Source: Treponema sp. (GTDB lineage Bacteria; Spirochaetota; Spirochaetia; Treponematales; Breznakiellaceae). From it: 34,564 nucleotides of DNA. Within the stretch, counting starts at the first letter, position 1, and every line of letters starts with the position of its first letter. The notes beneath the pieces are model-generated. The model was not told the DNA's origin, did not search any database, and saw nothing but the letters and a program-made list of their open reading frames with translations. The stretch is from assembly GCA_031278815.1 (NCBI GenBank), contig JAITJS010000050.1, positions 1 to 34,564 on the forward strand, given 5' to 3'. Positions 21,517 through 34,477 of this stretch are shown one piece after another. The position numbers were made by a program, and so were the translations under genes.

Positions 21517-21966
21517 TTAAAAAAAGTGTTGCAAGGTTCCCTGTTTCTTGAGGGTCTTGATATATTCGGCATATTTTATATCAGACATGGCGATGTGGGT
21601 TAATACCCAGTCCCGTAGGAAGCGGACAAAGGCATTGGGTACAAAGCTCTTACCATGCTCGAAGTTCTTCACTTCTTCAAGGACCTGTTTGACGAAGTTG
21701 CTGTGCTGCACTTTATGGGTCGCCAATTCAGGGAAGTTGACCCGTTCCATGAGCCGTTCTTCCGAGGTAAAATGGAACTGGACATATTCCACAGCGCTCT
21801 TGATGGCTTCCTTGAAATATGCCCGGGCTGCTTCTTCCCCTTCATGGCAGGCATCATACAGCTTATTCGTGATGATGAGCAGTTCCTTATGCTGCTCATC
21901 AATGGAAGGGATTCCCACTGAATACCGTTCTTCCCATACCACAAAGATATCTTTTTCCTTTTCCAT
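21517..21966 (-). CDS. Bacteriohemerythrin A
   Basis: This is a single-domain non-haem di-iron oxygen-binding protein of 149 residues. All seven expected iron ligands are visible: His26 (SIDEQHKEL), His65 and Glu69 (FHFTSEERLM), His84 and His88 (THKVQHSNF), His124 and Asp129 (LTHIAMSD). Such proteins store or deliver O2, or sense it, in the cytoplasm. AAGGA lies about 10 bases before ATG 21966. It starts 73 bases after hemerythrin B and is followed by uvrB. Its closest relative in the window is the N-terminal part of the broken copy A'. Confidence 0.94.
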   Translation of the reverse strand: MEKEKDIFVVWEERYSVGIPSIDEQHKELLIITNKLYDACHEGEEAARAYFKEAIKSAVEYVQFHFTSEERLMERVNFPELATHKVQHSNFVKQVLEEVKNFEHGKSFVPNAFVRFLRDWVLTHIAMSDIKYAEYIKTLKKQGTLQHFF

Positions 21967-22039
21967 CTTTAATCCATCCTTAAATATAAATGAGTGCCAC
22001 CTATACCATAGGCGTTTTGTACTCTAAGAGCCGTGACCT

Positions 22040-22519
22040 TTAGCAAGGCTCCCCTTCCTTTGCAGGTTCTGCTAGGACAAACATATCCGCCACGGACTCT
22101 TCCTTCTTAGCATATTTAAGATAGTCCGCGTACTTTTGATCTTCTTTGGCGATATGGGTTAATATCCAATCCCGTAGGAACCGGACAAAGGTATTGGGCA
22201 CAATTCCCTTGCCAGTTTCAAACTTTTTCACATCTTCCAGTACTTTTTTTACAAAATGCTCATGCTGCTTCTTGTGCTCAGCTAATTCGGGAAACTCAAT
22301 CCGTTCCATGAGTCTTTCTTCTGCGGAGAAATGAAAACTTACGTACTGCACAATGTCATGTACAGCCCGCTTGAAATACAAGCGTCCTGACTCTGTCCCC
22401 TGCATACAAGCAGCATAGAGATCCGCCGTAAGTTGAACCAGTTCTTGATGCTGTTCATCAATCTTCGGTATACCTACTGAATAGATATTTTTCCAGGTAA
22501 TAAACGCAGTTTCTTTCAT
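22040..22519 (-). CDS. Bacteriohemerythrin B
   Basis: The protein has 159 residues from ATG 22519, chosen since AGGGG lies 6 bases upstream; a longer in-frame start at 22564 adds 15 unlike residues. Iron ligands are His24, His63, Glu67, His82, His86, His122 and Asp127, all present. The core is nearly identical to copy B' (RIEFPELAEHKKQHEHFVKK in both). The C-terminal tail VADMFVLAEPAKEGEPC differs from the B' tail. The product probably binds O2. It is the first gene of the second B-A pair. Confidence 0.93.
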   Translation of the reverse strand: MKETAFITWKNIYSVGIPKIDEQHQELVQLTADLYAACMQGTESGRLYFKRAVHDIVQYVSFHFSAEERLMERIEFPELAEHKKQHEHFVKKVLEDVKKFETGKGIVPNTFVRFLRDWILTHIAKEDQKYADYLKYAKKEESVADMFVLAEPAKEGEPC

Positions 22520-22589
22520 AAAACACCCCTTTATATACGGCCGGAAGCAGTAAGACCCCCTCATGAGTCCTTATTTTCGTAGTCGACTT

Positions 22590-22618
22590 AGTTTACTAGA
22601 GTCTATGGACTATGTCTA
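22590..22618 (-). promoter_or_regulatory. Candidate promoter of hemerythrin B
   Basis: On the minus strand TAGACA (22618-22613), 17 bases, then TAAACT (22595-22590). The same layout occurs before copy B' (23741-23713), which supports a functional element inherited by duplication. Confidence 0.4.
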
Positions 22619-22658
22619 GAGCATTAGAAAAAGATACTATAAAAAATACCCTGTTCCT

Positions 22659-23081
22659 CTAGATAACACCCATAGGCGAGGGGATCTCCGCAAGAAACGG
22701 AGAGGGACTGCACTGGATAGTGCCCTGGAGTCGCCAGCGCTTTAAGCAGCTTGAGATGAAAAGCTTGTCCCGGGCTCTGGTGATAGCCACATAAAAAAGA
22801 CGCCGTTCTTCTTCCAGGTCTCCCTCCACTTCTTCAAGGCTCCGGGTATGGGGGATGATGCCGTCCTCTGCGCCGGCAATGAACACCACGGGAAATTCAA
22901 GCCCTTTGGCGGCATGGATGGTCATCAGGTTTACCTTACCTTTATCTCCCGCTTCTTCCCCCTTTCGACAGGCATCATACAGTTTATTCGTTAGAACGAG
23001 CAGTTCCTTATGCTGTTCATCAATGGAGGGGATTCCCACTGAATACCGGTCTTCCCATACTACAAAAACCTCTTTTTCCAT
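22659..23081 (-). pseudogene. Hemerythrin A' fused in frame to a duplicated helicase fragment
   Basis: A 140-codon open frame. Codons 1-44 match hemerythrin A ([20 protein letters not shown], then [18 protein letters not shown]). From [10 protein letters not shown] on, the frame follows helicase motifs V and VI ([27 protein letters not shown]), as in the neighbouring pcrA-like gene. Only the first iron ligand is left and no complete helicase domain is made, so no activity of either family is expected. It is most simply a copy of A whose 3' two-thirds were replaced. The frame is intact, so a short protein could still be made. It starts 88 bases after B'. Confidence 0.9.
22680..22961 (-). repeat. 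Duplicated helicase segment (copy inside hemerythrin A')
   Basis: 282 bases align without gaps, at a constant offset of 1196, with 23876-24157 in the pcrA-like gene. I count nine mismatches, about 97% identity, clustered towards the hemerythrin junction. At the junction GCTTCTTCCCC (22951-22961) is shared by the helicase gene, hemerythrin A and the chimera. Confidence 0.95.
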
Positions 23082-23169
23082 CTTTAACTTTCTTATATAA
23101 CAAGATATAATAAATACTCCGCCTAAACTAGGCGTTTGTATTCTCCTCGAACTCGTAAAAGGTTAGCCC

Positions 23170-23646
23170 CTACTTGCTTACTTCCGAGGCAGATTCTGAG
23201 GAGATAAACACTTCTGCTGCTAAAGATTCCTTCTTAAAATATCTAATGTGGTTTCCATACTTTTGATCTTCTTGAGCGATATGGGTTAATATCCAATCCC
23301 GTAGGAACCGGGCAAAGGTATTGGGCACGATTGCCTTTCCGCTCTCAAACTTTTTCACATCTTCTAGTACTTTCTTCACAAAATGCTCATGCTGTTTCTT
23401 GTGCTCGGCTAATTCGGGAAACTCAATCCGTTCCATGACTTTTTCTTCCGCAGAGAAGTGAAAATGTATATAACGCACAATTTCATGTATAGCCTGTTTG
23501 AAATAAACCCGGCCTGCATCAGTACCATGCGTACAGGCTGCATACAGAGCGGCTGTGAGCTGCACCAGTTCTTGATGCTGTTCATCAATTTGCGGAATAC
23601 CCACTGAATACGTATCTTTCCAAGTAATAAACGTAATTTCGTTCAT
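23170..23646 (-). CDS. Bacteriohemerythrin B'
   Basis: The protein has 158 residues with the full ligand set (His24, His63, Glu67, His82, His86, His122, Asp127). It is highly similar to hemerythrin B in residues 1-130 and differs at the tail (LAAEVFISSESASEVSK). AGAGGTG lies about 5 bases before ATG 23646. It is the first gene of the B'-A' pair, placed just after the helicase gene, from which it is separated by 133 AT-rich bases carrying its own candidate promoter. Confidence 0.93.
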   Translation of the reverse strand: MNEITFITWKDTYSVGIPQIDEQHQELVQLTAALYAACTHGTDAGRVYFKQAIHEIVRYIHFHFSAEEKVMERIEFPELAEHKKQHEHFVKKVLEDVKKFESGKAIVPNTFARFLRDWILTHIAQEDQKYGNHIRYFKKESLAAEVFISSESASEVSK

Positions 23647-23712
23647 AAAACACCTCTTTCATACAGCCGAAAATAGCACAACAAAACTACATTACTCCTT
23701 ATACAGTGGTTT

Positions 23713-23741
23713 AGTCTACTATAGGGTTTTGGATATGTCTA
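23713..23741 (-). promoter_or_regulatory. Candidate promoter of hemerythrin B'
   Basis: On the minus strand TAGACA (23741-23736), 17 bases, then TAGACT (23718-23713). A perfect TATAAT also lies slightly upstream but has no matching -35. The arrangement parallels that before hemerythrin B. Confidence 0.4.
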
Positions 23742-23779
23742 TAGTATTATAAACAAAAACAGGATGCCGGGATGGAGCT

Positions 23780-25834
23780 TCAGGTGAATCGCTTTTTAAG
23801 CAAGGTAAGAACATCCTCTGCTTCAGCGGCGCAGGCCTCCTGAGTCTTGGACTCAGCGTATTCCACTAGATGGAGGGGGATCTCCGCAAGAAACGGAGAG
23901 GGACTGCACTGGATAGTGCCCTGGAGTCGCCGGCGCTTTAAGCAGCTTGAGATGAAAAGCTTGTCCCGGGCTCTGGTGATAGCCACATAAAAAAGACGCC
24001 GTTCTTCTTCCAGGTCTCCCTCCACTTCTTCAAGGCTCCGGGTATGAGGGATGATGCCATCTTCTGCGCCGGCTATGAACACCACGGGAAATTCCAGCCC
24101 TTTGGCGGCATGGATGGTCATCAAGTTTACCTTGCCCTTATCTCCCGCTTCTTCCCCATCCTCTCGGGCGATGAGGCTTATGCGGTTGAGGTAGGGATAG
24201 AGGGTGGGGTCCAGGTTATCTGGATCGTGCTCCCAGTGGGCGATAGATTCGATGAAGGAACTGATATTGGCAAATTTCCACCGAGCCACCTGTTCGTTCT
24301 TGCTGAATTCCGTAACGAGGTAGCCCCAATAATCGATATCTTCTATCAAAGCCCGGACTTTTTGGGAAAGTCCTCGTTTCCCCAGCATGGTTTCCTTACA
24401 GCCTTCAATGAGGGTCATAAAGCTATCAATATCGGCATGGTCGGTCTCCTGGAAGCTCTGGTCATTAAAGGTGTCGGTAGCATACCGGAGGGTACTCATA
24501 GCGCTCCAGAGGGAGGAATGGTTTTGCCGGGCTCGTTCAGCCAGGGCTGCCACAGTGGTTTTGCCGATGCCCCGCCGGGGCGTGTTAATGATCCGCAAGA
24601 GGTTCACATCGTCATCCGCATTGGCAATGACCTTAAGGTAGGAGATAATGTCTTTGATCTCCTTGCGCTGGAAGAAACCGGTTCCCCCGGAAACCCGGTA
24701 AGGGATGTTTTCCGCTAAAAAGGCTTCCTCAATACTGCGGGTCAGGGAATTGGTCCTAATGAGAACCCCAAAATCATTGTAGGTACGCCCTTCCTTGAGG
24801 CGGATCTGCCTGATCTCCCGGACAATAAAGTCCGCTTCATCACTTTCGTTTTGAGGGGTACCGATCACAATGGGTTTCCCCCCTCCATTTCCGGACCAGA
24901 GCTTTTTCTCTTTCCGGTTGGTATTGTTGGAGATGACCCCATTGGCAGCTTCCAGGATGGTGGTGGTAGAACGGTAATTCTGTTCCAGCTTGATTTCCAA
25001 GGTTCCGGGAAAATCCTGCTCAAACCTGCGGATATTCTCGTAGTTGGCCCCTCGCCAGGAATAGATCGACTGGTCATCGTCTCCTACCACGCAGACATTT
25101 TTTTCTATAGGGTCCGCAAGGAGCCGCATGAGCCGGTACTGGGTAAGGCTGGTGTCCTGAAATTCATCCACCATGATATACCGATACCGGCGCCGGTATT
25201 TTGCTAGGACCTCTGGATAGTGCTCGAAGAGTACTATAGGGATGACCAGGAGATCCTCAAAATCCAGGGCATTGAAGATTTTGAGGCGCTGTTGATACTC
25301 CTCATACACCGGCTCAAAAGCAGCATTAGCCCCTTGTCCCCAGCGGAGGCGACCTATCTTAATATTGGCAAAAAGCTGCCCCAGGGCATAGAGATCCACC
25401 CCTTCCGGGGAGAGCTTGCATTCCCGAAGGCTATCTTTGATGAGCTGTATCTTGTCGGTTTCATCGTAAATCGAGAAATTCTTGCGGTATCCCAGGCGTT
25501 CGATTTCATCCCTGAGGATCTTGACCCCGAAGGAATGAAAGGTGCTGACCGTCAAGTTTTGCAGCTTCTTCTTGGTAAGCCCTTTGACCCGCTCCTCCAT
25601 TTCCCGGGCCGCTTTATTGGTGAAGGTCAGGGCCAGGATCGCGGACTGGGGGATGCCTCGTTCCAACATATAGGCAATACGGTAGGTGATGACCCTGGTT
25701 TTCCCGGAACCTGCACCGGCAATGATCAAGACCGGACCATGGATGGACGTTACCCCTTGGATCTGGGGACCGTTTAAGGGTTCGGCTTCAAGTTCGCCGG
25801 CATGGGGGGAGAAGCGCTTTGGGTACACCCTCAT
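23780..25834 (-). CDS. pcrA: UvrD/PcrA-family superfamily 1 DNA helicase
   Basis: This is a 3'-5' helicase of repair and replication restart. The protein has 684 residues with motifs in order: Q motif LNGPQ (20-24), Walker A AGAGSGKT (39-46), [56 protein letters not shown], and [17 protein letters not shown]. It is somewhat shorter than typical PcrA and lacks the long C-terminal tail. Its start overlaps the rdgB stop in an ATGA junction, so the two genes are coupled. The 3' segment 23876-24157 has been copied into hemerythrin A'. The name pcrA rather than uvrD or rep is a judgement from overall layout. Confidence 0.95.
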   Translation of the reverse strand: MRVYPKRFSPHAGELEAEPLNGPQIQGVTSIHGPVLIIAGAGSGKTRVITYRIAYMLERGIPQSAILALTFTNKAAREMEERVKGLTKKKLQNLTVSTFHSFGVKILRDEIERLGYRKNFSIYDETDKIQLIKDSLRECKLSPEGVDLYALGQLFANIKIGRLRWGQGANAAFEPVYEEYQQRLKIFNALDFEDLLVIPIVLFEHYPEVLAKYRRRYRYIMVDEFQDTSLTQYRLMRLLADPIEKNVCVVGDDDQSIYSWRGANYENIRRFEQDFPGTLEIKLEQNYRSTTTILEAANGVISNNTNRKEKKLWSGNGGGKPIVIGTPQNESDEADFIVREIRQIRLKEGRTYNDFGVLIRTNSLTRSIEEAFLAENIPYRVSGGTGFFQRKEIKDIISYLKVIANADDDVNLLRIINTPRRGIGKTTVAALAERARQNHSSLWSAMSTLRYATDTFNDQSFQETDHADIDSFMTLIEGCKETMLGKRGLSQKVRALIEDIDYWGYLVTEFSKNEQVARWKFANISSFIESIAHWEHDPDNLDPTLYPYLNRISLIAREDGEEAGDKGKVNLMTIHAAKGLEFPVVFIAGAEDGIIPHTRSLEEVEGDLEEERRLFYVAITRARDKLFISSCLKRRRLQGTIQCSPSPFLAEIPLHLVEYAESKTQEACAAEAEDVLTLLKKRFT

Positions 25835-27560: not shown

Positions 27561-28341
27561 TCAGTCCACTTTCAAGAATTCCACGTAACCGTTCCCTCCG
27601 TCTCCGGCCTTTCCGTTGTTGCGGTGGGAACCCGCATACCTATCTGCATACGGACTCCCACCGCCACAACCGGATTCGCCGTCCCTTCCGTTTATACTAT
27701 CGTATGTTCCTCAAGTCCCGCCCTTTTTCCCGTTTATTCCTCCTCCGGTGTTGCCTTTCCTCCCTGCCATAGGATCAAGCGGCCCGTCTTGTAACCCGTT
27801 ACCAACAGGTATCCATGAGTATTTTTTACTCCGGGTGTACCTTTCGGGTGATCTCCATTTACTCTTTCACCGATTCCTCCAACAGCGACTTAAGACGATT
27901 CCCCCTCTGGTGCATTCGGGTTGGCCGTCCATCGTGCTCCCGCAGCTCCTCCCTAGGCGATATTAATCCTCCCGTCGTCAAATCTTACCTCTGTGTTTCT
28001 CCCTCTTTTTCCTGCAACGCCACTCTGGTTTCCAGATGGTGTTGCTTGCCCTATCCCGCCATTTCCGCAAACGATATAGCATCGGGTCTATTGTTATCAA
28101 CCGAGCCCGCTGGTGACCCGGCACTACTGCCGCCACCAATAGCAACGACACGGTATATGCCCTTTGGGATAAACACGGGACCGCTTTCGGTAACCCTTTT
28201 GTTCAGTGTGCCAACCGCTCCTCTCTGACCAAAATTAAATACAGCTTGGACAAAGGCCGTAGTAGCGATCTGGGTGTTATTGGTCGTGGCTACTGCGGTT
28301 GGGGCAGTGGGAGCCCCCCCTCAGCGCCGGGTGTAATCTGA
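27561..28341 (-). pseudogene. Decayed phage tail-fibre gene, glycine-rich C-terminal part
   Basis: Read on the minus strand, one frame from 28314 to 28051 begins APTAPTAVATTNNTQIATTA followed by FVQA. This is the repeat signature of phage tail-fibre proteins (PTAP...NTTQIATTAFV). It goes on to GPVFIPKGIYRVVAIGGGSS. The frame then hits a stop, and the glycine-rich continuation moves to another frame (28060 to 27953 and on), with further stops at 27955-27953 and beyond. The last piece, NGRDGESGCGGGSPYADR to NGYVEFLKVD, ends at 27561. At least two frameshifts and several stop codons show decay. The 5' part is missing beyond a G7 run near 28314-28320. Host: a former prophage or phage-like particle. 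Confidence 0.7.
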
Positions 28342-28524: not shown

Positions 28525-29174
28525 TTAGAGACAGACACTAATTACTTCGCTGGTGGTAACTCGCGATTGGTAAGCAAAATTATTGTCGGAATATTCAATC
28601 TTTATATCAAATGGCCGTAATAACGCTAAAAGTTCGTCCAGGTTTTCATGTTCTCCTGTGCCGAAATGAAACTCTAACGGCTCCCCGGTAGTATAGTCTA
28701 TTGCCAACCATAGCCAATACTGATGACTTTTGTCCCCGACAAAACTCCCCATTTCGACTTCATTAACCGATACTAACTCAACCGTAATATCCTCCTTTTG
28801 GGGTCTGCTTAAGTAATCGTAATTGCCATACCATAACAGCCCTTCGATACTCCTCAGCGCATCGGTTACCGTGTCCTTGGTTATCCCCAGTATTCTGTCT
28901 GTTGCCCTCATCCCGCTTCCATTGACTACAGAAAAAAATATCCCTGATCGTATATTCGGATCCTATGCGTTGTAGGTATAATACTCAACAAACGTCTTAT
29001 GCCGGCACTTTTCATTGCAGCACAAAAAGCGTTGTTTGCCATTCTTGGATGTCCCGTTTTTCTTTACCTTGTCGCTTCCGCAATGCGGACCTTTTACCGG
29101 CGCTAATACCCTGATAATTCCTCCCTGTCTTTACTTTGACAACTACAGTATCATGGCTTTTATCCGCTGGTCAA
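28525..29174 (-). mobile_element. Decayed IS1-family insertion sequence (transposase remnant)
   Basis: The InsA-like part is read from about 29112: APVKGPHCGSDKVKKNG, SKNGKQRFLCC, HKTFVEYYTYNA. It is followed by a TAG stop (28965-28963), a second stop and a frameshift. The InsB-like part reads VNGSGMRATDRILGITKDTV (frame from about 28920), EVEMGSFVGDKSHQYWLWLA, IDYTTGEPL and YSDNNFAYQS, then stops at 28525, well before the usual C-terminus. The first zinc-finger Cys of CPHC is Gly here (codon 29091-29089), and the start codon has changed to AGG beside an intact AGGAGG. An IS1-like promoter, TTGACC-18-TACTGT (29174-29145), survives. The terminal inverted repeats were not identified. Confidence 0.8.
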
Positions 29175-29300
29175 CGCCTTTCGCCCATCACCTAATTGTT
29201 GAGTGAATAACGCCGCTGGTTCTAATGAAAAATACATCAGAACCACCCTTGTTCAAGCAAAAAATAATCTTGTTCCAATAAACATAACTAATCTCTCCTC

Positions 29301-29558: not shown

Positions 29559-31520
29559 TTATGTCTCGGGGTATTCCAGCTCTTGCATGACGGGGTATAG
29601 CTCCTTCCACAAAGGATCTAAGGTATCGGTCTTGGTATTTACCTGGATAATCCCATAGGAGATAGCCGGCTTATACTGCTGCGCTAAAGGGGAACTGTGA
29701 TACCGCTCGATAGGCGGGGCGTCATCTATCCGACCCTGCAGCAGCCATACCATCTTGATCGATTGCCCTGCTTCCCGGCCAGAGAGCTGACATCCGTATT
29801 TGATAATCTCCCGATCCATATAATACTGTTTGATACTCCAACGGGAAGAATACTTGGCGTCAAAGATCAGATAGCAGGAAGGAGTCGTTCTATCCCGCTG
29901 GAGTTTGATCATAAAATCCGGGGTATAAAAACCGTCTGCGGTAGTAGTTCGGTAGAGGCTTATATCGTTCTCAAAACGATCCGCACTGATAACCGGCTGA
30001 TAGTAGAGGGTAAGCAGCAATTCCCTGCGCCGTAACAGGTAGGTATTGGCCAGGTCTCCCCCGCGGTGTTCCTGGGCATGATAGGTAAAGGCGCGGGAGA
30101 CCTCTCCGGTTGCGGTAAACCCTGCATCTTTAAGGAGCACCAGGAGTCTGCATAAACAGTAATACTCAAAGAGCTTGTCCAAGGTCTTGGCATTCCCCAG
30201 CAAAGTTTCCTTCACCGGCGTGAATTCCCCAAAGTGATACCACCTCAGGATCTGTTCAAATACCTGTTGATAGGGCCGGACCTCCTGAAAGACCTTGGTT
30301 TTTTTAGGGATCCCCAAAAGCGGGGCATCTGCACAGGGGAGCATGTCCCGATACTTTGCGTATTGCCCGGCTAAGTTTAAAAGCAGCTCCTTAAGGGTGT
30401 TGAGTAGGGCCTGGTTCCGCTCCGCTTGGAGCTGCTTAATACCAATAATCGGCGCCCGGAATCCTTCCCGCTCAAGCCATTGCAGCTTATGAAGGACCTT
30501 GTATTCCTCGACTAACTGAAGGTGTACTTCTTCTATTACGGCCTTTAGGGTATTGCAGACCAATAAGAGAAACCCCAGTACCACCCGGTTTTCATACATG
30601 TCAAAGCTCTTGGTGGTTTTCTCAATGTACATCCGATAGGGCAGATAATGCCTACCTTGGATCTGGATGGCCGTGAGGCTTTTGGTGACCACCAGTTCCC
30701 CAGGGTTCTGGTACAACCATTGCAGGTTCCGGCGGCTGATGCTCTTGACCTGGTCATAGGATTGCAGGGAATCATGTTTGACGATCCGGTGTTTCGCCCC
30801 GCTTTTAAAGGCCGGGTAGTTTTCCTTATAACAGGTGTGGATGGAAGTGAGCAGTTGCATATAGGCGCTCAAGGATTTATAGGAGGCCTTGCGCTGCCGG
30901 GTTTGTTCCAGGTTTTCTGGTAAAAAACGATCCGGATCAAGAGGTACACCGGACTCTGGGGAAAACATCCAGGTACTGATGGTATCATCGTTAAATTCCG
31001 CTAGATACGTGATTATATCTTCAATGTTCTCCGCGTTAGCCCCATGTTTGCTTAAACAGAGCACATAATCGCTGGTGTACACCCGGGAACGCTCATCCTC
31101 CTGGACCTTGAGGGCAAACTGGACCAGATCGTAGTAGAGCAGAAAGGGCCTGCCTTCTTTGCGGTCTTCAAAATCGCCGCTCATCCCTTCGTTCAGGAAC
31201 TCCTTTCTAAACAGAATATCCGCGCTCTGTTCTCCCAAGGGTACATACCGCAGAGCCCCACCGAAGCCGATGGATTCTTCATTAAGAAACAGTTCCATCC
31301 CCTTTATGGGGCGATCCACCTGGGTGAAGAGGGCTGTGCAGGTATAGAGCCCTTCTGCGACCAGGCTTACGGTGTCCACTATCTCCTTGTGAGCGGTTAA
31401 AGTCAGGGGATACAGGGGGATGTCCCCGGAAGAGTCTATGCTGCCTGACTCGTGAGGCCCGCCTGGTTTTTGTTCCCTGTTTTTCCTGTTTTGCAGCCGT
31501 AAGCGAAGATAACATTCCAT
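29559..31520 (-). CDS. DUF2357-type McrC-like nuclease (PD-(D/E)XK)
   Basis: The protein has 653 residues. The middle carries SFDMYENRVVLGFLLLV (305-321), the ENR pattern of DUF2357 proteins. The C-terminal part is a PD-(D/E)XK nuclease: Glu452 in KLFEYYCL, Asp535 in YTPDFMIKL, and Asp554-x-Lys556 in LIFDAKYSS, so the catalytic set appears intact. McrC-type subunits supply the nuclease of type IV restriction systems and are driven by an McrB-type AAA+ partner. ATG 31520 has GGGAGG 6 bases upstream and lies 12 bases after the AAA+ gene stop, so the two form an operon. The target, modified DNA or RNA, cannot be told from the sequence. Confidence 0.83.
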   Translation of the reverse strand: MECYLRLRLQNRKNREQKPGGPHESGSIDSSGDIPLYPLTLTAHKEIVDTVSLVAEGLYTCTALFTQVDRPIKGMELFLNEESIGFGGALRYVPLGEQSADILFRKEFLNEGMSGDFEDRKEGRPFLLYYDLVQFALKVQEDERSRVYTSDYVLCLSKHGANAENIEDIITYLAEFNDDTISTWMFSPESGVPLDPDRFLPENLEQTRQRKASYKSLSAYMQLLTSIHTCYKENYPAFKSGAKHRIVKHDSLQSYDQVKSISRRNLQWLYQNPGELVVTKSLTAIQIQGRHYLPYRMYIEKTTKSFDMYENRVVLGFLLLVCNTLKAVIEEVHLQLVEEYKVLHKLQWLEREGFRAPIIGIKQLQAERNQALLNTLKELLLNLAGQYAKYRDMLPCADAPLLGIPKKTKVFQEVRPYQQVFEQILRWYHFGEFTPVKETLLGNAKTLDKLFEYYCLCRLLVLLKDAGFTATGEVSRAFTYHAQEHRGGDLANTYLLRRRELLLTLYYQPVISADRFENDISLYRTTTADGFYTPDFMIKLQRDRTTPSCYLIFDAKYSSRWSIKQYYMDREIIKYGCQLSGREAGQSIKMVWLLQGRIDDAPPIERYHSSPLAQQYKPAISYGIIQVNTKTDTLDPLWKELYPVMQELEYPET

Positions 31521-31532
31521 GGTAGGCCTCCC

Positions 31533-34076
31533 TTACTTGGCAAAGAACTGATAGAATCCCATATTCTCATCTGCGGCCTTGAGGATCCGGGTAATATGCT
31601 TGTGGCACAAGGGCATACTCTTACATTCTTCTTTAAGCCCTTTCAAGAGATTATGATACCGTTCCCCGGTACCATTTATGATGGGCAGGATCTTTTGGGA
31701 AACCGCATAATCCAAGGGGGCAAACCGGTTTTCCGAGGTCTGGGTATCCATATACTTGCAGGCAATGGCGCAATAGGTGTGGACCATTTTCAAATTCCGC
31801 GGCATGATGGGTAGCTTATACAGTTTGAAAATACTCTGGATCTTGCCCCATTTGCTGCTGATCCCTTCATCCCCAATGCCTCCATCTCCCCGGGACAAAA
31901 AAGCGGCGCTCAGGGCAGAGAAGGGAATGATGCTTTCCTTGTTCGGGGTCTCAAGCTGGGCCACTTCACCGCCCATAGTATCCGGATCCAAGGTGATGAT
32001 CCAGCTCCGATCCAGAAACCGGGGCGAGAGCTCTTCCGTGGTATGATCGAAATTCACCGTGGCCAGGAAGCGCAGGTGCCGGGGTATGCTCCAGTGGTGT
32101 TTTCCCCCCAGGCTTAAAGAGCGGCTATAGGTCGAATCCTCATCACACAAGCGGAGGAAAGCCGCCCAGTAGTGCTCCAGGGGACTTAAGTTAGCTTCAT
32201 CCAGGAGTATAAAAAACGGGGCATCTGCCTGGTGCTCATGTTCATAATGCAGCCGTTCCAGGGCATCGAAGACCCGGTTATTGCTTTTTTCCATCATCTT
32301 AGTGAGGGGATTGTAATAGCCGATGAAGTCCTTGTGGCTGGTCCAGCCCCGCTCCACGGATATGTCCACAAAGCGGCTTTGCACGTCGGAGCGGGCAAGT
32401 CCCAAGGATTTTGCCAGGATAGTACACAAGGAGGTTTTCCCGGTCCCCGGTTCCCCAGCAAAGGTGGTCATAAAGCCTTGCATGATACAGATGAGGTAAT
32501 TGGCCGTATCGTTGAGGCTGAGATCCCGGTTCGCCCCTTGGAGGTATTCATAGGTACGCCGGATAATCCGTTCCCCGGATAGTTCCATCTTAGACCGGGG
32601 TTTAAACAATAAGCGACTATCAAAGGAGATCAACTCTTCAAGGTCAGGCTTTTCCTCGCCCACTGCTTGCAGCACCTGGGTGAGCAGCTTACTGTCAATG
32701 ACCCGGGCAATAACCTGGACCTGATCCTTAAAGTGGGCCAGGGTGCGGTTGAGCTGCGTTTCAAGGCGGGCTTGTTCATCTTTATACTGATCGTATTCCG
32801 CCTGGATACGGGCAGTCTCTTCGTCCAGAAGGACCCTCTTTTTCGTGAGCTCTGCAATATCCTGGGCCGCCCCTACATACTGCTGGAGTTGCTGGTATTC
32901 GCTCTGTACTTGTTCCAGGGCAGTTTTCAGGGTCTTTTCTTCATGCTCAAGCTGCTGCATCAGTTCATGGTGTCGGGCCTGGGCTTCTTTGGTAAGGACC
33001 GTCTCATCACTCTTCAATTCCGCAAGCCGCTTCTCTTGGATCTCGAGTTCCGCCTGCAAGTGGGCTTTCCGTTCCCGGATCTGGATAAAGTCCCGGCTTT
33101 TTTCTTCGATTTTGTCAAGGTATTCATCACAAAACAAGGTAACCAACTGATCAAATGCCTCTTTATCATCAAAAATATTCGCCATAATGGTTTGTTTTAT
33201 CTCATCATGACGGATGACCTGGTCCAGCATTCCGGTAAGCCGTTGAAGCCGCTCTTCCGTGAGTTCCCTATCGTGATACAGGACAGAGGATTCAGCAATA
33301 ACGTTTTTTATCTGCCGAATTTGGGTCTTGGTATACCCATAGGCCGCGCTGGAAGCCAGCTTGAGGGTTGCATTCAAACCGTCTAGTAAGGTATTGTCGT
33401 TTATCCAGTCTATGTTCGGGGTACGGATCGCTATCCTTGCCAAAGAAGCCCGGGGGATAAAAGCAAGGGACGCCAACCCCTCTTCATCGGCAATGTACAT
33501 ATTGACCAGCGGGGTAATAGCCGCGGTCTCATAGGATTGGATTCTATAGTGGGATTCTTTCTTTCCAAAGAGCATGAGCTTTTGTTCTTGCGCTTCATAT
33601 TCCGCATCAAAGGGGCCGTAAAACGCGTCTCCACTTCGCAGGAGTACTTCGTTGGTATAGAGCGGTACCTCCGATACTATACACCGGTCTTTGGTAAGGG
33701 ATATAAAGTCTTTTGAGGTCTCAAAGAGCTGCATGAGCCCTTTTTCTTTGAAGCGGCTTATTTCTATCTCTGAATCCGCAAAAGCCGGATTGTATCGGAT
33801 CGAGGGATACCGGTCATCTTCATACCTGCGGGTAGGTTCAAAGTTAAATTTAACGGTTACCAGATGCCCATATTCTTCCACCACCTGTTCTGCTAAGACT
33901 CCATCTTGGGTAATACGGATATCGATCCGTTCATCCCCCTCTTGGAGCGATGCATAGGCCCCTCCAAGCTGTTTAAGATACCGTGGATAAATGTAACATA
34001 CCTTATTGGTTTCTCCGTAATAGTCTTTTTTATAGGTGAGCCATGCGATAATCGTCTTACCCATATATGCATCCAT
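31533..34076 (-). CDS. AAA+ ATPase/GTPase with central coiled coil, McrB-like
   Basis: The protein has 847 residues from ATG 34076, chosen because AAGGAGG lies just upstream; an earlier ATG at 34145 adds 23 residues without a site. Residues 1-310 are of unknown fold (FYGPFDAEY, PLVNMYIADEEGLASLAF). A long charged coiled coil spans about 317-452. The AAA+ domain has Walker A GEPGTGKTS (541-549), Walker B FFILLDEANLSPLEHYW (from 621) and a sensor/finger segment LATVNFDHTTEELSPRFLDR (from 671), a pattern of McrB-like and MoxR-like proteins. McrB has NTAD where this has NFDH, so nucleotide choice is unclear. The layout resembles CnuB of CoCoNuT systems (inference). It forms an operon with the nuclease gene. 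Confidence 0.82.
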   Translation of the reverse strand: MDAYMGKTIIAWLTYKKDYYGETNKVCYIYPRYLKQLGGAYASLQEGDERIDIRITQDGVLAEQVVEEYGHLVTVKFNFEPTRRYEDDRYPSIRYNPAFADSEIEISRFKEKGLMQLFETSKDFISLTKDRCIVSEVPLYTNEVLLRSGDAFYGPFDAEYEAQEQKLMLFGKKESHYRIQSYETAAITPLVNMYIADEEGLASLAFIPRASLARIAIRTPNIDWINDNTLLDGLNATLKLASSAAYGYTKTQIRQIKNVIAESSVLYHDRELTEERLQRLTGMLDQVIRHDEIKQTIMANIFDDKEAFDQLVTLFCDEYLDKIEEKSRDFIQIRERKAHLQAELEIQEKRLAELKSDETVLTKEAQARHHELMQQLEHEEKTLKTALEQVQSEYQQLQQYVGAAQDIAELTKKRVLLDEETARIQAEYDQYKDEQARLETQLNRTLAHFKDQVQVIARVIDSKLLTQVLQAVGEEKPDLEELISFDSRLLFKPRSKMELSGERIIRRTYEYLQGANRDLSLNDTANYLICIMQGFMTTFAGEPGTGKTSLCTILAKSLGLARSDVQSRFVDISVERGWTSHKDFIGYYNPLTKMMEKSNNRVFDALERLHYEHEHQADAPFFILLDEANLSPLEHYWAAFLRLCDEDSTYSRSLSLGGKHHWSIPRHLRFLATVNFDHTTEELSPRFLDRSWIITLDPDTMGGEVAQLETPNKESIIPFSALSAAFLSRGDGGIGDEGISSKWGKIQSIFKLYKLPIMPRNLKMVHTYCAIACKYMDTQTSENRFAPLDYAVSQKILPIINGTGERYHNLLKGLKEECKSMPLCHKHITRILKAADENMGFYQFFAK

Positions 34077-34268
34077 ACCAATCCTCCTTCCTTTGGGACC
34101 CTGACCGGGTACTGGTATTTCTTTGTTTGAAAAAACCGGGTACATAAGTACCAGGCTAAGCCTTGCAGGGGGGCTTATGAAGGAGCATAATAGCGGATCT
34201 TTAAGGAATACTCGATAGGCAGATTCAAGATAAACACCGGTTTTTTCTTAATTTCATAGTTTCATGGA

Positions 34269-34298
34269 GCTGTTTCAAAAGCATGCCTTTGAAACAGC
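34269..34298. repeat. Perfect 11-bp inverted repeat (GCTGTTTCAAA/TTTGAAACAGC)
   Basis: Arms at 34269-34279 and 34288-34298 with an 8-base loop containing GCATGC. No T run follows on either strand. It could be a dispersed hairpin repeat or a regulatory site between the two divergent units. Confidence 0.8.
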
Positions 34299-34477
34299 TT
34301 CTCATAACGTCTTTATTGTACACAAAGAAAGGGTAAACCGTCAACAATCCGCAATGCCTCAAAATAATTTTTTAACCCATGTTCTTCCAGCTTCCGGCTG
34401 GGCTAAGCTTCATCCCTCCTCAATAAAAAATCCCCGCCGCAGAGCGCTAAACTTGACCCACGGATTTTTCTGATTTG

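Follow-up and report, generated by a model that had tools for sequence, protein, structure and literature searches.

Does a two-gene operon on the minus strand of a Treponema sp. contig encode a restriction system, and to which of the known types is it closest? The window, the whole stretch of DNA analysed here, is an entire contig of 34,564 nucleotides from a 2.72 Mb draft genome. A sequence-only reading had proposed that a coiled-coil AAA+ protein and a DUF2357/PD-(D/E)XK nuclease form a tight operon of McrBC/CoCoNuT-like character.

The operon, its two proteins and its leader

The first gene of the operon (31533..34076, minus strand) encodes an 847-residue McrB-like AAA+ NTPase of the NxD branch, and the downstream gene (29559..31520, minus strand) a McrC-like protein of 653 residues. 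The two open reading frames are separated by only 12 bp, which bears out the tight operon, and the McrC-like gene has its own AAGGGAGG site. The start of the AAA+ gene at 34076, already chosen in the sequence-only reading, is common to the relatives and is preceded by AAGGAGG. Mechanical ORF calling gave a longer start at 34145, which was ruled out by the conserved start. Both reading frames are open, every motif is intact, and no further operon genes were seen besides this pair.

The AAA+ domain covers residues 500-847 (31536..32579, minus strand), as judged from a Pfam AAA match (1.7e-06) and from McrB structures. Searched against the PDB, a profile of the NxD-branch AAA domains retrieved the McrB structures of E. 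coli and Thermococcus (6hz4, 9.7e-12; 6ut6, 1.9e-11; 6ut3, 7.8e-11), and the only entry ranking above them was midasin, a related AAA protein. On these profile matches, the domain is assigned to the McrB family. It carries a Walker A motif, GEPGTGKT (residues 541-548; 32433..32456, minus strand), and a Walker B motif, FILLDEAN (residues 622-629; 32190..32213, minus strand). Fifty residues further on, with no helical insert in between, the sensor-1 position is occupied by NFD (N675-F-D677; 32046..32054, minus strand). GxPGTGKT, LDEAN and NFD are invariant in an alignment of the close family (15 sequences), and N-x-D is retained in all 15 of the more diverse AAA domains aligned. The sequence-only reading had regarded NFDH as a departure from the NTAD of McrB. 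However, NxD is the published signature of a large branch holding the coiled-coil McrBC and CoCoNuT systems, in which the next residue is E or D "usually, but not invariably", so that H is allowed (PMC11090510). NFDH is therefore a known family mark. In a tree of the AAA domains collected here, those of the Treponema, Lachno-type, Klebsiella and Vibrio proteins form one separate clade (support 100/99). Three weak matches (L028-L030) were discarded as relatives, being Lon-like proteases.

N-terminal to the AAA+ domain, a coiled coil spans about residues 326-470 (32667..33101, minus strand). It is indicated by a continuous helix, predicted at about residues 305-459, and by coiled-coil profile matches. 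Its length differs among relatives; in the alignment it is about 60 residues shorter in sister genera.

In the partner protein, DUF2357, the McrB-stimulating N-terminal domain of McrC, was found at residues 216-334 (30519..30875, minus strand; PF09823, 3.7e-07), and a PD-(D/E)XK nuclease domain at residues 449-569 (29814..30176, minus strand; PDDEXK_7, PF04411, 2.6e-06). Both matches exceed the Pfam cut-offs. The nuclease residues E452, D535, D554 and K556 are kept in 11 of 11 aligned proteins from very different settings, so that the E-PD-DxK active site, earlier described as apparently intact, is indeed conserved. Because both domains are found and the nuclease residues are kept, we consider the partner as McrC-like. 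Compared by profile, E. coli McrC and this protein did not recognize each other.

The 5′ leader (34077-34344, minus strand) is conserved among genus-mates. It comprises a sigma-70-like promoter (TTGACG-N18-TACAAT; 34315..34344, minus strand) located about 240 bp before the start, a block that is near-invariant in the main subclade, and a terminator-like hairpin followed by U6 (34130..34155, minus strand) some 54 nt upstream of the start codon. Pairing of 34237-34242 with 34134-34139 would create a competing structure disrupting this hairpin, which is thus a possible transcription attenuator of the pair. In six sequences, all 36 cells of the antiterminator pairing are paired, with one compensatory change, and 83 of 500 shuffles were as good. 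Since one compensatory pair in six sequences does not beat shuffles, we treat the candidate attenuator as a lead only. A leader-peptide reading was rejected because neither its start codons nor its reading frames show conservation, and an Rfam search of the region returned nothing. The leader also contains a palindrome, GAAGCTGTTTCAAA..TTTGAAACAGCTC, at 34268-34299, which is missing from the leader of L036/L037. Close copies are found at intergenic positions elsewhere in the same genome (C59:18004 and C104:22471). The palindrome is thus probably a REP-like hairpin dispersed in the genome, and this recurrence makes a role as a specific operator unlikely.

The N-terminal region and comparison with known systems

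The region preceding the coiled coil was described in the sequence-only reading as matching no recognized sensor domain. Pfam and the PDB were likewise blank: no convincing Pfam family was found for any member, the profile of the region had no PDB match, and CSD, YTH and EVE domains were matched in 0 of 15 members in either database. Two blocks can be distinguished. Residues 1-115 (33732..34076, minus strand) diverge fast and do not align across phyla. Residues 130-326 (33099..33689, minus strand) comprise first a beta-rich part, marked by an invariant G-P pair and then F, and next a helical part that starts with ID-W-I-N-D and whose ID motif is nearly invariant.

A profile built from Treponema-family sequences only was run against relatives from other groups. 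Over residues about 115-317, it matched the Klebsiella protein (8.1e-10), the P4-satellite protein (2.8e-09), the Lachno-type element (1.4e-07) and the prophage protein of L118 (7.7e-06). Shuffled sequences and other NxD McrBs scored 0.18 or worse, the module being absent from the latter. The Vibrio protein, at 0.14, was not separated from these controls. On this profile evidence, residues about 130-317 form a module that is common to several phyla and specific to the clade among the McrBs compared. On the other hand, residues 1 to about 115 were not recognizable across groups with the same profile. This fast-diverging block appears to be the best candidate for target recognition.

Structure prediction from the single sequence gave a pLDDT of 38. 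With 12 sequences, an AF2 model of residues 1-326 reached 51, the clade-specific module being partially modelled at about 50-78. The best hit of a PDB fold search with this low-confidence model had an E value of 0.15; the search is uninformative because the pLDDT stayed at 51.

Among described systems, the pair shares most with CoCoNuT Type I and the NxD coiled-coil McrBC systems (PMC11090510): a two-gene operon with the McrB-like gene first, NxD, a coiled coil N-terminal to the AAA+ domain, and a McrC-like partner with DUF2357 and PD-(D/E)xK. The module at residues 130-317 of its AAA+ protein was seen only in this clade among the McrBs compared. Type I CoCoNuTs have a cold-shock OB domain at the N-terminus of CnuB, often together with a YTH-like domain in I-B and I-C, and CnuC begins with an IG-like beta-sandwich. 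In Type I-A, a helical insert separates Walker B from NxD; this insert is absent from the pair, which is therefore not Type I-A. In Types II and III, the McrC nuclease is inactive or lost and HEPN, CnuH or CnuE genes are present, whereas the pair has an intact active site and no such extra genes. CoCoPALM also combines NxD with a coiled coil but has an FtsB-like transmembrane fusion. The pair has no transmembrane segment (maximum 19-residue hydropathy of the McrB-like protein, 1.08) and no third gene. By the features tested, Types I-A, II and III and CoCoPALM are excluded.

The resemblance to E. coli K-12 McrBC concerns the family, the gene order and, by analogy, an NTPase activated by a DUF2357-nuclease partner. 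However, E. coli McrB has the NxxD form (NTAD), an ADAM methylcytosine reader and no long coiled coil, and E. coli McrC has 348 residues compared to 653 here. In PADLOC, the best match of every AAA+ member scanned is PDC-M26 (model PDC-M26A), an uncharacterized phage-defence candidate, with 7.6e-29 for the AAA+ protein of the window. The match spans only positions 127-431 of 724, from the coiled coil to Walker B. The McrC-like protein had no PADLOC match, and we found no paper on PDC-M26. Finally, S. aureus PcdA is also a McrB-family AAA+ protein kept vertically in one lineage, but its Walker motifs are degraded and its McrC partner is gone, whereas the pair keeps both (PMC10602043).

Mobile relatives and a resident chromosomal locus

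In other groups, the two-gene architecture is carried by mobile elements. It lies directly downstream of a P4-type integrase on satellite-like contigs (L119/L121), beside a phage lysozyme gene in a prophage (L118), on Klebsiella plasmids with integrase genes alongside (L042), and next to an integrase on one further contig. In a mobilizable element (L058), the pair has an integrase/Xre/MobV-like module on one side and a second integrase on the other; the MobV-like relaxase was named from its sequence and has no Pfam match. On a 110-kb contig, another pair is positioned just upstream of genes for a C5 cytosine methylase and Vsr (L117:13966-16120). Scanning viral contigs with a profile of diverse members yielded nine further loci; single-protein scans returned nothing, or the query only. 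A search of E. coli genomes found no close copy of the pair from Klebsiella. In a pair from a Salmonella IncR plasmid (L090) and in a treponeme protein (L027), a long stretch separates Walker B from the expected NxD, and both resemble CoCoNuT Type I-A.

The relatives found in the genome collection are Treponema/Spirochaetaceae MAGs, which we take to be of termite-gut origin going by isolate names. Within the genus, the AAA+ gene is present in 10 of 11 genomes. The sole genome without it, G067, has a completeness of 98% and is the nearest relative by UvrB. In six genus-mates, the pair is divergent from three ECF biotin-transporter-like genes (bioY, bioM and bioN, names assigned from sequence alone). 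In one other, its neighbours are genes for a Fur-like regulator and a rubrerythrin-like protein; the sister genera have it downstream of a recG-like gene. In the genome studied here, bioY is on another contig with different genes upstream, so that the pair has moved. Compared to close genus-mates, synonymous divergence is about 0.5-0.66 for the pair, 0.52-0.63 for BioM and 0.62-0.77 for UvrB, and dN/dS is about 0.14-0.28 for both genes of the pair. The similar dS values and the low dN/dS show that the pair is old, mostly vertically inherited and under purifying selection; its GC and GC3 are host-like. Hence, it is a long-resident, mostly vertical chromosomal locus in the genus. The sequence-only reading had named synteny conserved in all treponemes, with no defence neighbourhood, as an argument against a defence system. 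Such synteny is not what is seen: in this phylum, only a few genera, all from a single family, have the full-length pair.

In the window, the pair is flanked by degenerate sequence (27.5-29.5 kb). Downstream of the McrC-like gene, a fragment of an IS1-type DDE transposase was identified at 28525-28911 (2.9e-13), within a broken remnant extending over 28525-29206; related DNA is present in the genus-mates G215, G281 and G289. A degenerate reading at 28084-28323 (minus strand) contains a tail-fibre-like stretch (PTAPTAVATTNNTQIATTAFV), for which a tblastn search of the phage collection returned nothing at E 0.01. Thus, of the phage and IS remnants reported in the sequence-only reading, the IS part is confirmed and the phage part stays putative. 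As a clue to defence, this debris says little because the pair is present in 10 of 11 genomes, mostly vertical, and usually beside the biotin-transporter-like genes. Evidence for a defence role comes instead from the distant relatives riding on prophages, satellites and plasmids, to which the IS1 fragment adds little. No other defence genes were found among the annotated genes of the window, and the neighbours are housekeeping genes. Further away, three hemerythrin-domain genes (21517, 22040 and 23170) lie in a cluster (21517-25834) in which a UvrD C-terminal fragment (22659-23081) adjoins a full pcrA/uvrD-like helicase gene (23780-25834). This cluster looks like a tandem partial duplication.

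Function of the pair

The AAA family, the partner domains, the gene order and the coiled coil were all tested and all support the McrBC/CoCoNuT-like reading. We therefore propose, with a probability of about 0.8, that the pair is a restriction system of McrBC type (Type IV-like) belonging to the coiled-coil NxD branch, most likely directed against phages and other invading nucleic acid. The N-terminus of the AAA+ protein, with its variable residues 1-115 and its GPF/helical module, would sense or bind a feature of the incoming nucleic acid or a signal of infection. The coiled coil may couple this sensing to the AAA+ ring, or set the geometry of the ring. By family resemblance, the AAA+ domain would then hydrolyse NTP to move nucleic acid or to remodel the complex; in classical McrB, the NTP is GTP. 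DUF2357 of the partner would dock on the ring and stimulate hydrolysis, as known for E. coli McrBC, and the PD-(D/E)XK domain, with its intact catalytic residues, would cut the target. In the Treponema genus, the pair would be expressed from its own promoter, possibly under transcription attenuation. When the NxD branch was described, no activity had been reported for any of its McrBs (PMC11090510).

A narrower form of this explanation, whose likelihood overlaps with that of the restriction reading, is that the pair is specifically a Type I-C CoCoNuT, or close to it, with a cold-shock OB fold and a YTH-like modified-base reader preceding the coiled coil, and that its target is RNA or modified nucleic acid. 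A two-gene system of the same layout has been described for Type I-C (PMC11090510), and the CnuB/CnuC order, NxD, the fusion of a coiled coil to the AAA+ domain, the intact PD-(D/E)xK, the absence of a helical insert before NxD and the roughly 330 N-terminal residues in two blocks all agree with it. However, the failure of CSD, YTH and EVE to match any of 15 members in Pfam or the PDB, and of the low-confidence model to match a fold, leaves this assignment tentative, at roughly one chance in three. Slightly less favoured, and still speculative, is the idea that the pair belongs to a distinct, unnamed NxD McrBC defence subtype whose range extends from spirochaetes to P4-like satellites and plasmids of enterobacteria. 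Its clade-specific N-terminal module, made up of the fast-evolving residues 1-115 and the GPF/helical module, would read a new feature of nucleic acid or a signal from phages; attenuation would tune its expression in Treponema.

Two other explanations depart further from restriction. A defence gene would not usually be near-universal in a genus and reside mostly at one conserved position of the chromosome, which leaves room for co-option of a former restriction system to chromosomal housekeeping in the Treponema lineage, as for the McrB-family protein PcdA, co-opted for cell division in S. aureus (PMC10602043). The vertical-like dS, the conserved neighbourhood and leader, and the host-like GC and GC3 point in this direction. 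Yet PcdA no longer has intact Walker motifs or a McrC partner, whereas the pair keeps all catalytic residues and the nuclease; in addition, G067, closest by UvrB, lacks the gene, the locus has changed position during the history of the genus, and in other phyla the relatives travel on mobile elements. These observations make co-option improbable. As to a decaying, non-functional remnant among mobile-element debris, the IS1 fragment and the degenerate sequence alongside are what would be expected, but the open frames, intact motifs and conserved leader argue otherwise and the selection test contradicts it, so that we give decay very little credence.

As a restriction system, the pair represents a clade of compact two-gene NxD McrBCs whose nuclease is intact and whose close relatives are carried by phage satellites and by plasmids of enterobacteria. 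It is testable in E. coli for what the coiled-coil McrBC branch recognizes and for whether it cuts DNA or RNA. Overall, termite-gut Treponema provide a clear case of a McrBC system kept near-core and mostly vertically inherited.
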